Shown in pieces: positions 19,962 through 44,160 of a stretch of DNA of 44,472 nucleotides (position 1 is the stretch's first letter; every line of letters starts with the position of its first letter). The notes under the pieces are model-generated. The model was not told the DNA's origin, did no database searches, and was given only the letters and a program-made list of their open reading frames with translations. This DNA comes from Acidobacteriota bacterium (GTDB taxonomy: Bacteria > Acidobacteriota > CAIWXX01), in contig JACPPM010000163.1 in assembly GCA_016191015.1 (NCBI GenBank), positions 1 through 44,472 on the forward strand, in the 5' to 3' direction. A program made the position numbers and the translations under genes.

Positions 19962-20106
19962 GTACCCGCTCAGGCCAAGAAGAACCCACCACAGAATGCA
20001 CAAAACGCGCAGAAGTCACGAATGTTCAATACCTCTTTTTCATCCATTCCCGTTGTGGCTTTTGCGCGTTATGTGCCTTCTGTTGTTAGTCTGGCTGAGT
20101 AGTTAC
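19962..20106. repeat. Miniature inverted-repeat element A2 (145 bp)
   Basis: It has the same ends and arms as 1060-1205: GTACCCGCTCAGG on the left, GCTGAGTAGTTAC on the right, with CCACAGAATGCACAAAACGC against GCGTTATGTGCCTTCTGT in the arms. The central loop (GTTCAATACCTCTTTTTCATCC) aligns with that of A1. No gene lies inside. Confidence 0.85.
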
Positions 20107-37369: not shown

Positions 37370-37403
37370 CTAATGGCTAACAGCTAAGGGCTAAAGGCTA
37401 ATG
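37370..37403. repeat. GGCTAA-type short repeat overlapping a start codon
   Basis: CTAATGGCTAACAGCTAAGG and GCTAAAGGCTAATGG form tandem GGCTAA-like units. The ATG 37401 of the next gene lies in the last unit. Related sequence occurs inverted near 1028-1050. It replaces the place where a ribosome site would be expected. Confidence 0.55.
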
Positions 37404-38696
37404 GCCGGGCGAGCGACTCCCCGTGTCCTCCTGGGCTTCTTGATCGTCGCGTTGGCATGCGTCGCGCTGATCTGGGCGCTGGCGGGTCGAGGCGGCGGGA
37501 ACCCGCGAGTGATCCTGATCGGGCTCGACGGCGCCGGCTGGACGACCGCTAGCCCACTCATGGCGGCTGGCGATCTCCCGAATCTGAAGGCACTGGTCGC
37601 TGCCGGCGCCAGCGGGCCGATTGCGAGCATGTCGCCCATAATTTCGCCTCGGATCTGGACGACGATCGCGACGGGGAAGGTGCCACGCAAGCACGGTATT
37701 TTCAACTTCACCTATAAGACGCCCGGCGGCCGTGAAGCGCCGGTCCATCGGGGGATGCGACGATGCAAAGCAGTCTGGAACATCCTCGGAGATCACGGCG
37801 TGAAGGTCGCCGTGGTGAACTGGTGGGTGACGTGGCCGGTTGAGCAGGTCAACGGGCTGATGGTGAGCGACCGCCTGCGGCTCGGCACGAATCCCAAATA
37901 CCACGCCGACACTCTGGCGTACCCGCCGTCGCTGGCGGATCGCCTGCTGCCGCTGGTCGACAACAGCGAGACGGCATTCGAGCGCGACGGAGGCGCCTTC
38001 GGCTTTCCCGTCGAGTGGCTCAGGACCGCCACCCTCGACGATGACCTTTTCAGAAAGATGCGGATCCAATTCCCCGCCTACTTCACGCAGGAGAATGCGA
38101 TCCGACGGATCGGCCAGGCCCTGCAGAAAGACGATTGGGACTTCTACGCGGTTGTCTTTAGGATGATCGATGTCTCGTCGCATTCGCTTCAGTACCAGAT
38201 CGATTTCGAGAAGGCCGTGGCCGAGGGCGATGCCGCGCTCACGCGGGAGTTCACGCGCGCGATCCGCCCGGCGTGGCTTTTCTGTGATGCCGTGATCGGC
38301 GACTTCCGCCGCGCTCATCCCGACGCGACATTTGTCGTCGTATCCGATCACGGCTTCGTCTACCAGGGCCGCCTTTTCAACCACGGGAACCGGGACGATG
38401 GTCCGGCGCCGGGTGTCTTCGTGATCTCAGGCGGGGCTGCGAGGAGAGGTGCATCCGTGTCGGGCGCATCCGTCCTCGACGTGACGCCGACAATTCTCCG
38501 TCTGTACGGCCTCACCGTCGCCGGCGACATGGACGGCAAGATAGTTGACGACGCCTTCGATGCCGCACGGCTCCCTTCACTCTCCCTCCAGCAGCCCTCC
38601 TCCTACGACACTGGATGGAAGAACACGATCGATGCGGGCGGCGCCGATGAGACCGAAGTCATGGAAGACTTGCGGGCTCTGGGCTACATCCAGTGA
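37401..38696 (+). CDS. Membrane-anchored alkaline-phosphatase-superfamily enzyme (type I phosphodiesterase/nucleotide pyrophosphatase-like)
   Basis: 431 residues. A transmembrane anchor lies at about residues 9-28 (VLLGFLIVALACVALIWALA). The catalytic domain has the first metal Asp43 (VILIGLDGAGW), a Thr nucleophile in RIWTTIATGK (about residue 87), the Asp...His pair in MIDVSSHSLQ, and the Asp-His of VVVSDHGF. The segment GVFVISGG and the ending LRLYGLTVAGDMDGK...GYI are common to the PDE/sulfatase-like subgroup found with glycan or TPR proteins. It probably hydrolyses a phosphodiester or transfers a phospho-group outside the membrane. The substrate is unknown. ATG 37401 sits in a GGCTAA repeat and lacks a ribosome site, so a GTG start at 37425 or later is possible. 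Confidence 0.85.
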   Translation: MAGRATPRVLLGFLIVALACVALIWALAGRGGGNPRVILIGLDGAGWTTASPLMAAGDLPNLKALVAAGASGPIASMSPIISPRIWTTIATGKVPRKHGIFNFTYKTPGGREAPVHRGMRRCKAVWNILGDHGVKVAVVNWWVTWPVEQVNGLMVSDRLRLGTNPKYHADTLAYPPSLADRLLPLVDNSETAFERDGGAFGFPVEWLRTATLDDDLFRKMRIQFPAYFTQENAIRRIGQALQKDDWDFYAVVFRMIDVSSHSLQYQIDFEKAVAEGDAALTREFTRAIRPAWLFCDAVIGDFRRAHPDATFVVVSDHGFVYQGRLFNHGNRDDGPAPGVFVISGGAARRGASVSGASVLDVTPTILRLYGLTVAGDMDGKIVDDAFDAARLPSLSLQQPSSYDTGWKNTIDAGGADETEVMEDLRALGYIQ

Positions 38697-38782
38697 GGCA
38701 CTCTGCCGGCCTCGTCGGGTTTGTTGCAAAATGCAAAGTGCACGCTGGCATGCCCGGGACATGTATCTTGTCTTCTTCGTTT

Positions 38783-39132
38783 GCAACCGCTCAGGTCAGG
38801 TGGAGTCCACCACAGAATGCACAAAATGCGCAGAAGCCACAAGTCCTCAATGCCGGTCTTTCATTCATGGCTGCGGCAAAGTCGAGGCGCCGACTCGGGC
38901 GAGGCCTTTCCGTGCGAAACCGCAGATGGCGCAGATTTCCGCGCAGATTACGCAGATACTTCCAGCATTCAACCGACGAGCAACTTGCTCCCCACTCTCG
39001 GGTCGGCGGAAAGCAATCGGCGACATCTGCGAGTCAATCTGTGAGATCTGCGGTTTCCGGATCTTTGCCGTAGCCTTGGTCTTTCATTCCTTCCTTTTGT
39101 GCCTTCTGTGGTTAACCTGCCTGAAAAGTCAC
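38783..39132. repeat. Miniature inverted-repeat element A3, interrupted by element B3
   Basis: The left part (38783-38868) matches A1 and A2: GCAACCGCTCAGGT, then CCACAGAATGCACAAAATGC, then CAATGCCGGTCTTTC. The right part (39076-39132) ends CTTTTGTGCCTTCTGTGG and ACCTGC. Removing the insertion and one target-site copy leaves 127 bp. Compared with A1 the right arm also lacks 18 bp between two TTTTGTGCC repeats, which accounts for the difference. Confidence 0.85.
38869..39075. mobile_element. Non-autonomous MITE-like element B3 (207 bp) inserted in A3
   Basis: Terminal inverted repeats are GGCTGCGGCAAAG (38869-38881) and CTTTGCCGTAGCC (39063-39075), matching at 12 of 13 positions. The direct repeat GGTCTTTCATTC flanks it at 38855-38866 and 39078-39089, a candidate 12-bp target duplication. 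The uninterrupted loop of A1 and A2 shows the single ancestral site. Internal arms have CCGCAGATGGCGCAGATTTC and its counterpart CTGTGAGATCTGCGG. There is no gene inside, so movement would need a transposase in trans. Confidence 0.85.
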
Positions 39133-39140
39133 TTTCGTTC

Positions 39141-42100
39141 CTAGTCCTGCACTGACTCCAGAATACCGAGTAGTTCGTCGAACTGGCAGTTCTTGATCGA
39201 GTGGGAGAGGGAGTCGGCGAGGCCGGCGTCGAGCTGGCGGATCTCCTCGGCTACATGGATCGAGCCGCGATCGTCTCCTCGCTCGAGCGCTTCCACGAGG
39301 CGACGTCTCAGAGGCTTCGGGACTCTCTGCAGATGCTGGATGACGGTGGCGGGGTCGAGTGGCTGGGGAGGCGGCGCCGCAGGTTCGCCGTGCACGAAGT
39401 GCAAGCCGGTGTGTCTGGAAAGCTTCTCGAACAGCTCGGTCTCACGATATGGTTTTCGTATGTAGTCGTCGCACCCGGCGTGAAGCACAGCATCGTGCTC
39501 CTGCTCGAGCACGCTCGCCGTTATCGCGATGATGACCGTGCGCGCGCTCGGCGCCGCCGCCCCCGCGGCCGCGGCCGCCGCGGCCGCCGCTTCCTCGGCG
39601 CGGATCTGCCGCGACGCTTCGTACCCGTCCATCCCCGGCATTCGAACGTCCATCAGGATCACGCGCGGTTTGTCGCGTCGCCATAGCTCGACGGCCTCCC
39701 GGCCGCCACTCGCCTCAATCACTTCGAGACCGTTCACGGCGAGCTGCTCCCTGAGGAGACGGCGGTTCGCAGCCTTGTCGTCCACCACGAGCACACGGCA
39801 CGGCGCCTGACCTGGCTCGAGTCCCGTCACCGGCCTATCGGGCGATGCGGCCTCCGGAGCGATCGCGTCTTCGGCGACACGTGGCAGCGGGATGTCGAAA
39901 CTGAACACGCTTCCTCGTCCTTGGGTGCTGGCGACCTTGATCTCTCCCCCCATCATCCTGATGAAGCTCCGGCTGATGGCGAGGCCGAGTCCTGTGCCCT
40001 CCCGCGGCTGGCGACCCACCTCGGCCTGGTAGAACGGTTCGAAAATCCTGTCCACGTCCCCCTCTCTGATCCCAGGACCCGTGTCCTCGATCTGGAACGA
40101 GCCGACGCCATCATTCCAGGATATTCGCACCGTGACGCCACCGGCCTCCGTGAATTTGAAGGCGTTCCCGATGAGGTTGATCAGGATCTGCCGCAGCTTC
40201 CCCTCATCGCCGGAGACCTGCTTCGGGATCCCGGGTTCTCGCAGGAACTCCAACTGGAGTCGCTCGTTTTCCGCCCGGACGCGGAAGATCTCCTCGAGCC
40301 CCTGCAAGAGCCTCCAGAGATCGAACGTTCTGATGTTGAGGCTCGCGTGACCTGCCTCGATTTTCGAGATCGACAGCACATCGTTGATGAGTCCCAATAG
40401 GTGTTCGCCGCTTCTCATGATGATGTCGAGCCGTTCGCGGTCGGGGGCCGGGCGGTTGGGGTCGCGGTTCATGAGTTGTACGAATCCGAGGATGGCGTTG
40501 AGAGGCGTGCGCAGCTCGTGACTCATGTGCGCGAGAAACCTGCTTTTCGCCTGGTTCGCCTCTTCCGCCCGGATCCGCTGGAGCTCGGCCTCGGCCCTCT
40601 GCCTCTCGGTTTCTTCCTTCTCCGTGCGCAGACTCCTGGTCCGTTCCTCGACCTGATTCATCAGCTCGCGTCGGTGAGCCTCGAGGTACCCGACGCGAGC
40701 TCGGTAGGCGGCTCCGGAGACGATCACGATGAGGAAGCTCGAAAGAAGGTAAAACCACCACGTCTGGTGGAAGCGCGGTGCGAGATAGAAATCCAGCGCG
40801 GCCCCGTCATGGTTCCAGAGCCCGTCTTCGTTGCACGCGATCACACGAAAGGTATAGCGGCCGGGGGCCAGATTCGTGAAGTACGCCGTGCGGCGAGCAC
40901 CGGCGTCGGTCCAATCCTCTTCGAGCCCATCCAGTTTGTACTTGAATCTGACTCGCTCGGGCACACGGAGGCTGAGCGCGGTGTAGCGGAACTCGAATTT
41001 GGATGCCCCCGGATTGATGAGCAGACCGGGCGCGATGGCGACCGGATGTGCATCGGCGAAGAAGTCCTCGACGATCACCGGCGGCGGGATCTGGTTCATC
41101 GGAAGGTGATCGGGATCGACCACCGCCACGCCCTTGGTGGTCGGAAACCAGAGCTTTCCGTCGGTGGTTTTCCAACCCGCGGGCTGCGTTCCGCCGTTGC
41201 ACTCGGCCTTTCTCATGCCATCTGCCGGCCCGAATGCATGGCATTCCACAGAGAGCGTCGTGCCCGATGTAAGCAAATCGAGATCCGATTTGAGGACGCG
41301 GAAGACGCCCTTGTTGGAGCTGAGCCAGAGGTAGTGTCTGTTGTCTTCGAGTATCTGGAAGACTGAGTCGTCGAAGAGCCCCTCCCTAGTCGTGAACGAA
41401 GAAAATTTCCCGTCTTTGTAGCGGACAAGGCCGCCGCCGAAAGTCCCGAACCAGAGGACATTGTCAGCGTCTTCCCAGATCGCGTTGATGTCATCGTTGG
41501 AGAGACCATCCTTGGTTGTGTAGCTGGTGATCCTGTTTCCGCGCATGCAGGTGAGGCCCCGGTCCGCGGCGAGCCAGAGATTCGATTCGTGATCCTCGTA
41601 GATCCAGGAGATGTGGTCGCTCGAGAGCCCGTCTTTGGTTCTGTAGACTGTGAATCGCCCCTGATCGAGACGGTTGACGCCTCCGCCCCAGGTGCCGATC
41701 CAGATGCTGCCTTTTCGGTCCTGATAGACCGCCCGAACCTCGTTGTGGGAGAGTCCATTGGCGGTCGTGTAGGCGGTGAACTTCCCGTCTTTGAGATGAT
41801 TCACGCCGCCCGTACTGGTCCCGAGCCAGAGGCTTCCGTCTCGGTCTTCACACATCGCCCAGACGGCGTTGTCGGACAGGCCGTCGGCCTTCGTATAGGC
41901 GGTGAATCGGCCATTCTCGTAAAGATTGAGCCCCCCGCCGAACGTGCCGATCCAGACGCGCCCTTGCCGGTCCTGCAAGACCGTCCTCACTTCGTCGTTC
42001 GTGAGTCCCTCTCGGGTCGTATAGGTGGTGAACTTGCCGCACCTGAGGCGGCTCAACCCGCCACCGTGGGTGCCGATCCAGAGACTCCCTTCACGATCCT

Positions 42101-43001
42101 CGTAGAGCGCTACGACGCGATCGCCCGAGAGGGCATCCCGGGATGTAATGGTCTCGGTCCGCCCGCCGCTGAGGAGGCGGGTGAGCCCTTCTCCGTTCGT
42201 GCCCACCCAGAGATTCTCATCACGATCCTCCTGGATAGTCTTCACCTGCGACGTGATCGTACGATCGGGGACGAAGCGATCGCCGTCGAGACGGCAGAGC
42301 CCGCGGCTGGTCCCAACCCAGAGCGACCCGCGCCGGTCCTCGTAGATGCACCACACCTGCTGATCCGGCAGCCCCTCGGATGCGCCATAGCTCCTAAACT
42401 TGTTATCGACGAATCGGTCGATCCCGTTGCTCGTGCCGATCCAGATCGAGCCGGCCGAATCCTGGTGGACCGCCCAGACGCGCCGATCGGATAGCCCGTC
42501 CTTCTCGTTCAGTATCGTGACCTTTCCATGGACCATGTGGCCCAGCCCATTGGACGTGCCGATCCACAAACCGCCGTCCCGGTCGACCGTGAGAGCGAAT
42601 ACCTGTGCACGGAGCAGGTCGGAAGCTTCTGAGTAGCTGCGGAATCTGCCGTTCGAAAGTGACATCAAGCCAGCGTAGGTTCCGATCCAAAGGGTCCGGT
42701 CATGATCTTCGGCCAGAGCACGTATCCAGTTGTGGGCCAGCTCAGGCGTGTTGCGGCGGTCGAATGTTGTGAAGCGCGCGCCGTCGAAACGCACAAGACC
42801 CTCCTGGGTACCGATCCAGAGGTATCCATCGTGCGTCTGGATGAGTGCTTCAGCGGCGTTCTGTGGAAGCCCGTCCTCGACCTGCCAGCTGTCGAGGACA
42901 TACTGCGTGATCGCTCGAGCCGGGTCGAGCGCCGTGAGGGAAGCCGCGAATGAGCATACGGCGGCGATACAGGCGAGGAAGTGAGCCTCGCTAGTGTTCA
43001 C
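39141..43001 (-). CDS. Hybrid sensor kinase: double beta-propeller / Y_Y_Y / HisKA / HATPase / REC
   Basis: 1286 residues from GTG 43001, 16 nt after the stop of the upstream kinase gene; the longer frame overlaps that gene. A signal segment (HFLACIAAVCSFAASLTAL) precedes 14 LW(I/L)GT-type propeller repeats, a Y_Y_Y domain (FEFRYTALSLRVPERVRFKYKL-type strands), a transmembrane helix (WFYLLSSFLIVIVSGAAY) and a coiled coil. HisKA has His828 (MSHELRTPLNA), and the HATPase has NLIGNAFKFTE, DTGPGI and GTGLGLAI. The receiver has Asp1118 (LMDVRMPGMDGYE). Inside the receiver an alanine run (about residues 1134-1149), encoded by a GCC/GCG repeat, interrupts the usual helix. The last 80 residues look like an HPt-type bundle without a clear His. 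The sensor resembles that of the kinase at 1408-4380, but the transmitter class differs. Confidence 0.93.
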   Translation of the reverse strand: MNTSEAHFLACIAAVCSFAASLTALDPARAITQYVLDSWQVEDGLPQNAAEALIQTHDGYLWIGTQEGLVRFDGARFTTFDRRNTPELAHNWIRALAEDHDRTLWIGTYAGLMSLSNGRFRSYSEASDLLRAQVFALTVDRDGGLWIGTSNGLGHMVHGKVTILNEKDGLSDRRVWAVHQDSAGSIWIGTSNGIDRFVDNKFRSYGASEGLPDQQVWCIYEDRRGSLWVGTSRGLCRLDGDRFVPDRTITSQVKTIQEDRDENLWVGTNGEGLTRLLSGGRTETITSRDALSGDRVVALYEDREGSLWIGTHGGGLSRLRCGKFTTYTTREGLTNDEVRTVLQDRQGRVWIGTFGGGLNLYENGRFTAYTKADGLSDNAVWAMCEDRDGSLWLGTSTGGVNHLKDGKFTAYTTANGLSHNEVRAVYQDRKGSIWIGTWGGGVNRLDQGRFTVYRTKDGLSSDHISWIYEDHESNLWLAADRGLTCMRGNRITSYTTKDGLSNDDINAIWEDADNVLWFGTFGGGLVRYKDGKFSSFTTREGLFDDSVFQILEDNRHYLWLSSNKGVFRVLKSDLDLLTSGTTLSVECHAFGPADGMRKAECNGGTQPAGWKTTDGKLWFPTTKGVAVVDPDHLPMNQIPPPVIVEDFFADAHPVAIAPGLLINPGASKFEFRYTALSLRVPERVRFKYKLDGLEEDWTDAGARRTAYFTNLAPGRYTFRVIACNEDGLWNHDGAALDFYLAPRFHQTWWFYLLSSFLIVIVSGAAYRARVGYLEAHRRELMNQVEERTRSLRTEKEETERQRAEAELQRIRAEEANQAKSRFLAHMSHELRTPLNAILGFVQLMNRDPNRPAPDRERLDIIMRSGEHLLGLINDVLSISKIEAGHASLNIRTFDLWRLLQGLEEIFRVRAENERLQLEFLREPGIPKQVSGDEGKLRQILINLIGNAFKFTEAGGVTVRISWNDGVGSFQIEDTGPGIREGDVDRIFEPFYQAEVGRQPREGTGLGLAISRSFIRMMGGEIKVASTQGRGSVFSFDIPLPRVAEDAIAPEAASPDRPVTGLEPGQAPCRVLVVDDKAANRRLLREQLAVNGLEVIEASGGREAVELWRRDKPRVILMDVRMPGMDGYEASRQIRAEEAAAAAAAAAGAAAPSARTVIIAITASVLEQEHDAVLHAGCDDYIRKPYRETELFEKLSRHTGLHFVHGEPAAPPPQPLDPATVIQHLQRVPKPLRRRLVEALERGDDRGSIHVAEEIRQLDAGLADSLSHSIKNCQFDELLGILESVQD

Positions 43002-43017
43002 GTTCAGTGTGTCGTCC

Positions 43018-44160
43018 TCATGCGCCCGCGGCTCCGCGAACCGGGAGAGCGAAGGTGAAGGTCGATCCCTTGTTCGCCTCGCTCTCCACCCAGATTCGAC
43101 CCCCGTGCGCTTCCACGATCCGTTTGACGATGGCGAGCCCAAGGCCTGTACTTCTTTCCCCCCCTGTGGGTCTCACGCTGAGGCGCACGAACTCGGCAAA
43201 AACCTTCTGGATCTCGCCCTCCGGGATTCCCTGCCCCTGGTCGCGGACGAACATGTGGATCTCGCCGCCGTCGGGGCGCGCTCCGAGACAAACGCTGGTC
43301 CCCGGATGCGAGAACTTGACCGCGTTCGAGACCAGGTTGTTCACCACCTGGCGGATGCGTTTCGGGTCCATACGCACCACCGGCATCGCCGGCGGAACGT
43401 CCAGTCTCATCCCAATCGATTTCGCCTTGGCGGTGAGCAGGCCGTCGGCCATGCATTCTTCAAGGAACCGGACAACGTCCACATCGACCGTGCGCAAGTC
43501 GAGATGCCCGGCCTCGATCGCACTCACGTCAAGCAGGTCATCGATCAGCGCCAGCATCGTCTCGCAGGCCCGGTCCATCGTCTTCAGGATCTGAAGCTGG
43601 CTTTCCGGGACATCACCCAAGATCCCGCCGACGAACAGTCCCAGGTACGCCTTGGTGACGGTGATGGGGTGGCGGAGGTCATGAGCTGCCATGCCGACGA
43701 ACCGGTTCTTCTCCTCGTTCAGCTCCAGGAGCTCCTGGTTCTTCCGCGCCAGCTCCACATTGCGCCGCTCGAGCTCGCGCTGCAGCCTCGAGATCCTGAG
43801 TTGATTCTCGACGCGCGCGACCACCTCCTGCTCCTGGAACGGTTTGGTCACGTAGTCGCATCCACCCGAGTTGAATGCACGGACCTTGTCGAATGGGTCG
43901 TCGAGCGCGCTGATGAAAACGATGGGAATCGACCGGGTGGCGGGATCCGCCTTGAGCGCTTCGCAGACCTCATACCCGTCCATTTCAGGCATCCGAATGT
44001 CCAGCATGACCAGGTCGGGCGGGTGGCTCTTCACCGTCGTCACCGCCCTCCGCCCGCTCTTCGCCATACGCACGCCGTAACCGTGATCTCGCAGAATACC
44101 CGCAAGAAGGTTCAGGTTATTCGAATTGTCGTCGACGATGAAAATATCACCGCTAAGCAA
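43018..44160 (-). CDS. Receiver-histidine kinase (REC-HisKA-HATPase), cytoplasmic
   Basis: 380 residues from TTG 44160, with GAAGAGGA just upstream; the open frame extends to 44313 but that part lacks receiver homology. The receiver has IFIVDDNSNN, Asp54 (VMLDIRMPEMDGYE), FISA and YVTKPFQ. A coiled coil (LQRELERRNVELARKNQELLEL) links it to HisKA with His160 (MAAHDLRHPI) and to an HATPase (NLVSNAVKFSHPG, DQGQGIPEG, STGLGLAIVKRIVEAHGG). No membrane helix. This architecture receives a phosphoryl group and adjusts its own kinase activity. The hybrid propeller kinase follows 16 nt downstream on the same strand, so the two probably form one relay: either the hybrid's receiver or an unlinked regulator is the next step. 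No output regulator is adjacent. Confidence 0.9.
   Translation of the reverse strand: MLSGDIFIVDDNSNNLNLLAGILRDHGYGVRMAKSGRRAVTTVKSHPPDLVMLDIRMPEMDGYEVCEALKADPATRSIPIVFISALDDPFDKVRAFNSGGCDYVTKPFQEQEVVARVENQLRISRLQRELERRNVELARKNQELLELNEEKNRFVGMAAHDLRHPITVTKAYLGLFVGGILGDVPESQLQILKTMDRACETMLALIDDLLDVSAIEAGHLDLRTVDVDVVRFLEECMADGLLTAKAKSIGMRLDVPPAMPVVRMDPKRIRQVVNNLVSNAVKFSHPGTSVCLGARPDGGEIHMFVRDQGQGIPEGEIQKVFAEFVRLSVRPTGGERSTGLGLAIVKRIVEAHGGRIWVESEANKGSTFTFALPVRGAAGA

Follow-up and report, generated by a model that had tools for sequence, protein, structure and literature searches.

The window analyzed here, a 44,472-nucleotide stretch of Acidobacteriota contig JACPPM010000163.1 (assembly GCA_016191015.1), holds one small mobile element, B, inside another, A3. 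A nested insertion of this kind is in itself an ordinary, textbook event. The questions that the locus raises are what moved B into A3 and where the interior of B came from. The nested pair is placed between two convergent genes, a type I phosphodiesterase/nucleotide pyrophosphatase gene at 37401 to 38696 (plus strand) and a hybrid two-component sensor gene (Reg_prop, HisKA, response regulator) at 39141 to 43142 (minus strand). An Rfam search of the whole window gave zero matches.

Alignment to other copies in the genome showed that B runs from CAG to TTG and occupies positions 38866 to 39078 on the plus strand (213 bp); the window copy opens with CAT, a single change. Its left inverted repeat is CATGGCTGCGGCAAAGTC (38866 to 38883, plus strand; consensus CAGGGCTGCGGCAAAGTC) and its right repeat lies at 39061 to 39078 (minus strand; consensus CAAGGCTACGGCAAAGTC, read on that strand). 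In the consensus these repeats are 18 bp long with 2 mismatches. An earlier note on this DNA had recognized a 207-bp element at 38869 to 39075 with 13-bp terminal repeats, one mismatch between them, and a 12-bp target duplication. The element and its repeats are real, but both are longer than that note had them. The 12-mer GGTCTTTCATTC is indeed present on both sides (38855 to 38866 and 39078 to 39089), but because B runs from CAG to TTG, the true duplication is the 10-bp GTCTTTCATT, with plus-strand copies at 38856 to 38865 and 39079 to 39088. The remaining bases of the 12-mer are part element sequence and part coincidence. The core of B (38916 to 39057, plus strand) is a hairpin of the AACCGCAGATNNCGCAGAT class with arms at 38916 to 38957 and 39016 to 39057. 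Short, noncoding (213 bp is too short for a transposase) and bounded by terminal inverted repeats, B has the build of a MITE.

A3, the older MITE of about 146 bp that B splits, spans 38783 to 39132 on the plus strand. Elements of this type have ends of the GTAACTACTCAGG type, which in A3 read GCAACCGCTCAGG (consensus GTAACTGCTCAGG) and CCTGAAAAGTCAC (consensus CCTGAGTAGTTAC). The A3 target duplication is decayed, with 6 of 8 positions matching between the left copy, CTTCGTTT (38775 to 38782, plus strand), and the right copy, TTTCGTTC (39133 to 39140, plus strand). Two unbroken sisters lie on the plus strand of the window: A1 at 1060 to 1205, with an exact 8-bp duplication, GAGCCCGG, at 1052 to 1059 and 1206 to 1213, and A2 at 19962 to 20106. 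Once B and one duplicate were removed, A3 aligned across the site with both sisters (80% for A1, 78% for A2), which bears out the empty site that the earlier note had seen in these sisters. An independent 18-nt deletion in the right arm is private to A3. None of 31 aligned A copies holds the GTCTTTCATT site in two copies, in keeping with insertion of B as a nested mobile element.

The 8-bp duplications of A recur as well, with at least 6 of 8 positions matching in 17 of 24 copies (shuffled mean 1.05, maximum 6). In its GTAA ends and 8-bp duplication A is like the IS66 family, whose published features are ends starting GTAA and an 8-bp duplication (PMC11946415), but the published start is GTAAGCG and that of A is GTAACTG. 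We found no A-like ends at the IS66 transposase loci of its own genome or of G001, a genome from a sister genus, and no IS66 parent, so membership of A in the IS66 family is unproven.

B is abundant in its own genome, a 6.43-Mb draft in 349 contigs, for which a copy number of about 185 rests on pattern counts: the central sequence of B gave 185 matches with at most 3 mismatches, and the reversed-pattern control gave 0. Sequences like its ends also occurred beyond chance (495 versus 51). Target duplications were mostly 8 to 10 bp, with a mode of 10 bp. In 20 of 43 copies, at least 8 of the 10 flank positions matched (shuffled mean 0.52, maximum 5); 11 of 47 copies had no recognizable duplication, and some of these lie at contig ends. 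B thus combines target duplications with a high number of near-identical copies, as MITEs do. At one locus (L274, contig C20), inverted B copies at 205 and 2727 have rare variants in common and bracket a sensor-kinase gene. This pair is possibly a composite unit or a product of gene conversion; no transposase is found among the open frames between the copies, and we rejected it as the home of an autonomous partner.

Full-length B copies, of which 47 were sampled, measured 212 to 213 bp, were 88 to 99.5% identical to the consensus and had a mean pairwise divergence of 4.8%, versus 15.7% for A; because the sample favors good copies, the true divergence of B is somewhat higher. In a second case of B within A (locus L060, contig C51), B lies at another position in A and its duplication is a near-match of 8 of 9 bases. 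The reverse nesting was not seen in the sampled B copies, whose uniform length leaves no space for an A element. The lower divergence, the L060 case and the absence of A within B together support the order that the earlier note had proposed, with B younger than A and spreading after it. None of the 148 relatives searched in a 149-genome sample has a full B, and these include the sole other member of the family in that sample; within the sample, only the source species has it.

The ends of B point to a mobilizer. Elements of the ISAs1 family have ends of 14 to 22 bp starting CAGGG and a 10-bp direct repeat (PMC11946415), and B resembles them in its CAGGG start, its inverted repeats of about 18 bp and its 10-bp duplications. 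We sought ISAs1 transposases in relatives and read the ends of their elements, from which two end groups emerged. Plain ISAs1 elements lacking DruA (G001, G007 and G062) end in CAGGGCAGACGCATCT or similar and were rejected as parents. The second group encodes an ISAs1 transposase (PF13808, PF01609, NF033564) that is extended at its N terminus by a DruA domain (PF14236) and has B-type ends, which are common to the DruA-ISAs1 elements of G001, G063, G289, G183 and G009; NF033564 was above its cutoff in elements of G063, G289, G183 and G001. Through these elements of other genomes, B shares its ends with an autonomous element type. It differs from the ISAs1 family in being gene-less, where its full-length relatives carry an ISAs1 transposase (NF033564), and the transposases that match B differ in their extra DruA domain, which brings the relatives to about 2.0 kb. 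We found no description of a DruA-ISAs1 fusion in the open-access literature.

The closest match was in G001, where a left end, CAGGGCTGCGGCAAAGTCG, and a right end, CAAGGCTACGGCAAAGTCGC, surround an internally deleted ISAs1 transposase. In BLAST comparisons with the G001 elements, B was identical at 19 of 19 bases on the left and 22 of 23 on the right, including the G/A asymmetry between left and right. Complete DruA-ISAs1 elements were present in G063 (L151, 358 to 2364; 2007 bp) and G289 (L150, 711 to 2738; 2028 bp), with exact 10-bp duplications CTCTACCTAT and GGGGTCTGAC, respectively; the genes of these full-length relatives contain stops or frameshifts. As for B's own genome, the search for a transposase with matching ends that the earlier note had suggested turned up only relics: at L287 (contig C209), ends CAGGACCACGTCAAAGTCG and CAGGGGAACGTCAAAGTCG flank a DruA fragment, and L091 holds a fragment of ISAs1. 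We found an intact DruA-ISAs1 transposase nowhere in this 349-contig draft, from which repeats may be missing, and none of the genome's matches to ISAs1, DruA-ISAs1 or IS66 transposases lies within the window. Since only relics are kept, the B copies look stranded, and the autonomous partner would have been lost or left unassembled; the supply of transposase in this genome is probably gone. Separate DruA-domain genes adjoin IS66 transposases in the same genome (L236, contig C343) and in G001 (L238, contig C72; L241, contig C174), which is a second association of DruA with a transposase.

We also looked for exact matches to the 18-mer end across 84,980 species genomes. The 32 stretches recovered were mostly uninformative, and none encodes the transposase near the end; several of the eight that we examined seem to be coding sequence matched by chance. 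One genome was informative, a Candidatus Troglogloeales MAG (SBBA01), in which another MITE with a different core carries a B-type end and a DruA-ISAs1 gene adjoins an end reading CAGGACTACGGCAA. The MITE of this genome (L243, L248, L255) is about 180 to 190 bp long, with ends CAGGGCTACGGCAAAGTC and CAAGGTCACGGCATAG and a hairpin, ATTCCCGC...GCGGGAAT.

On these comparisons of sequence, the mobilizer of B is likely of the DruA-ISAs1 transposase lineage. An ISAs1-family transposase with an N-terminal DruA domain would recognize the 18-bp ends of B and would move B in trans, leaving a 10-bp target duplication; one copy has inserted in the loop of the older MITE A3. We hold it very probable that B is such a MITE with ISAs1 ends and that it reached A3 in this way.

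B might instead have come from a DruA-ISAs1 element by simple internal deletion, with a hairpin core that appeared later or by chance. Derivatives of that kind exist in G001, where the two extremities of the gene are fused in an 848-bp copy (L106). BLAST of B against any parent, however, aligned the end sequences only, and the consensus core, as single-stranded DNA, folds far better than shuffles (z score, −5.8). Moreover, free-standing hairpins that match the core occur in B's own genome (L231, L232) as well as in genus g26. The AACCGCAGATGGCGCAGAT pattern with which this hairpin opens gave 192 matches in the own genome, most of them within B. Among 296 genomes it was present in 12 others, g26 being the commonest source with up to 43 matches; reversed controls gave zero. 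We therefore consider simple internal deletion improbable and infer for the core an origin as a captured hairpin repeat and not as the deleted interior of a transposon.

Several IS families make duplications of 9 to 10 bp, so an unrelated family (of the IS4 or IS1 type, for example) could have moved B, with convergence accounting for its ends. The near-complete identity of both ends to those in G001, down to their asymmetry, and the independent support from the Troglogloeales MAG make this very unlikely. Another reading takes the repeats for regulatory or terminator hairpins under selection that spread by recombination, with coincidental duplications. It would suit the strong hairpin of the core and the position between two convergent genes but is refuted as the mode of B spread by the precise empty site and by duplications that vary by site and match their partners far above shuffled flanks; a secondary terminator role is possible.

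The core of B is one of a wider class of hairpins. The A core, ACCACAGAANGCACAGAA, belongs to the same class, and across the phylum such arms are found on both sides of nuclease-like GxxExxY genes (TIGR04256, PF13366). We counted 38 arms in 104 kb at GxxExxY loci, where first-order Markov shuffles predicted 0, whereas control loci totaling 164 kb had none. A convergent arm pair was present at 12 of 34 GxxExxY loci, a few of which overlap and are hence partly nonindependent. Inverted ACCRCAGA-type arms, with repeats every 8 to 10 bases, were observed around the GxxExxY genes of L196 to L229; we found no description of these arms or of the hairpin sequence in the open-access literature.

One such gene sits within A-type ends. 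At L226 (own genome, contig C96, 1063 to 1579), a 517-bp unit with ends GTAACTACTCAGGT...ACCTGAGTAGTCAC and an exact 8-bp duplication, CTCCTTTC, contains a single intact GxxExxY gene and inner ACCGCAGAGACGCGGAG arms. At L227, in the same genome, a GxxExxY gene lies between arms of the B-core type. No clear target duplication was visible by eye at the arm-only units L201, L206, L215, L218 and L227. Elsewhere in the genome (L229, contig C284, 222 to 373), an A-ended 152-bp hairpin abuts the remnant of a GxxExxY gene that itself carries an arm; this may be a further nested case.

Because the two cores belong to one class and an intact GxxExxY gene sits within A-type ends at L226, A and B can be read as composite MITEs. 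A is plausibly a unit like that of L226, where gene and arms sit within A-type ends, but without the gene, and B is the same kind of hairpin within different ends. The units thus share their arm class with the A and B cores and differ in carrying a gene, whose protein has only a hypothetical role in mobility. We propose tentatively, as a possibility rather than an expectation, that ACCRCAGA hairpins and GxxExxY genes form a widespread, previously undescribed class of mobile element, that its gene-less forms were repeatedly captured by the ends of ordinary insertion sequences (GTAAC ends in A, ISAs1 ends in B), and that the protein aids in moving or keeping the element. One published account mentions GxxExxY only as a neighbor of a reverse transcriptase, and we found no role for these common genes in the open-access literature.

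Known bacterial MITEs include Chunjie of Geobacter uraniireducens, Correia and ERIC, described in a review in which ISAs1 goes unmentioned (PMC10969869). B is like them in being about 200 bp long and gene-less, with inverted repeats, target duplications and tens to hundreds of copies, but differs in being composite, since its ISAs1-type ends enclose a hairpin core that also exists independently.

Given the DruA-ISAs1 assignment and the shared core linked to GxxExxY genes, B would be a novel form of a familiar type of element. Through this assignment, a high-copy MITE can be connected with a family of transposases that join ISAs1 to DruA. The DruA domain is known from the Druantia anti-phage system, and the connection hints at a link between a Druantia defense protein and transposons. 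The same class of hairpin core is found in two MITEs with unrelated ends and marks the borders of GxxExxY genes, a link that offers a concrete proposal for what these genes may travel with.
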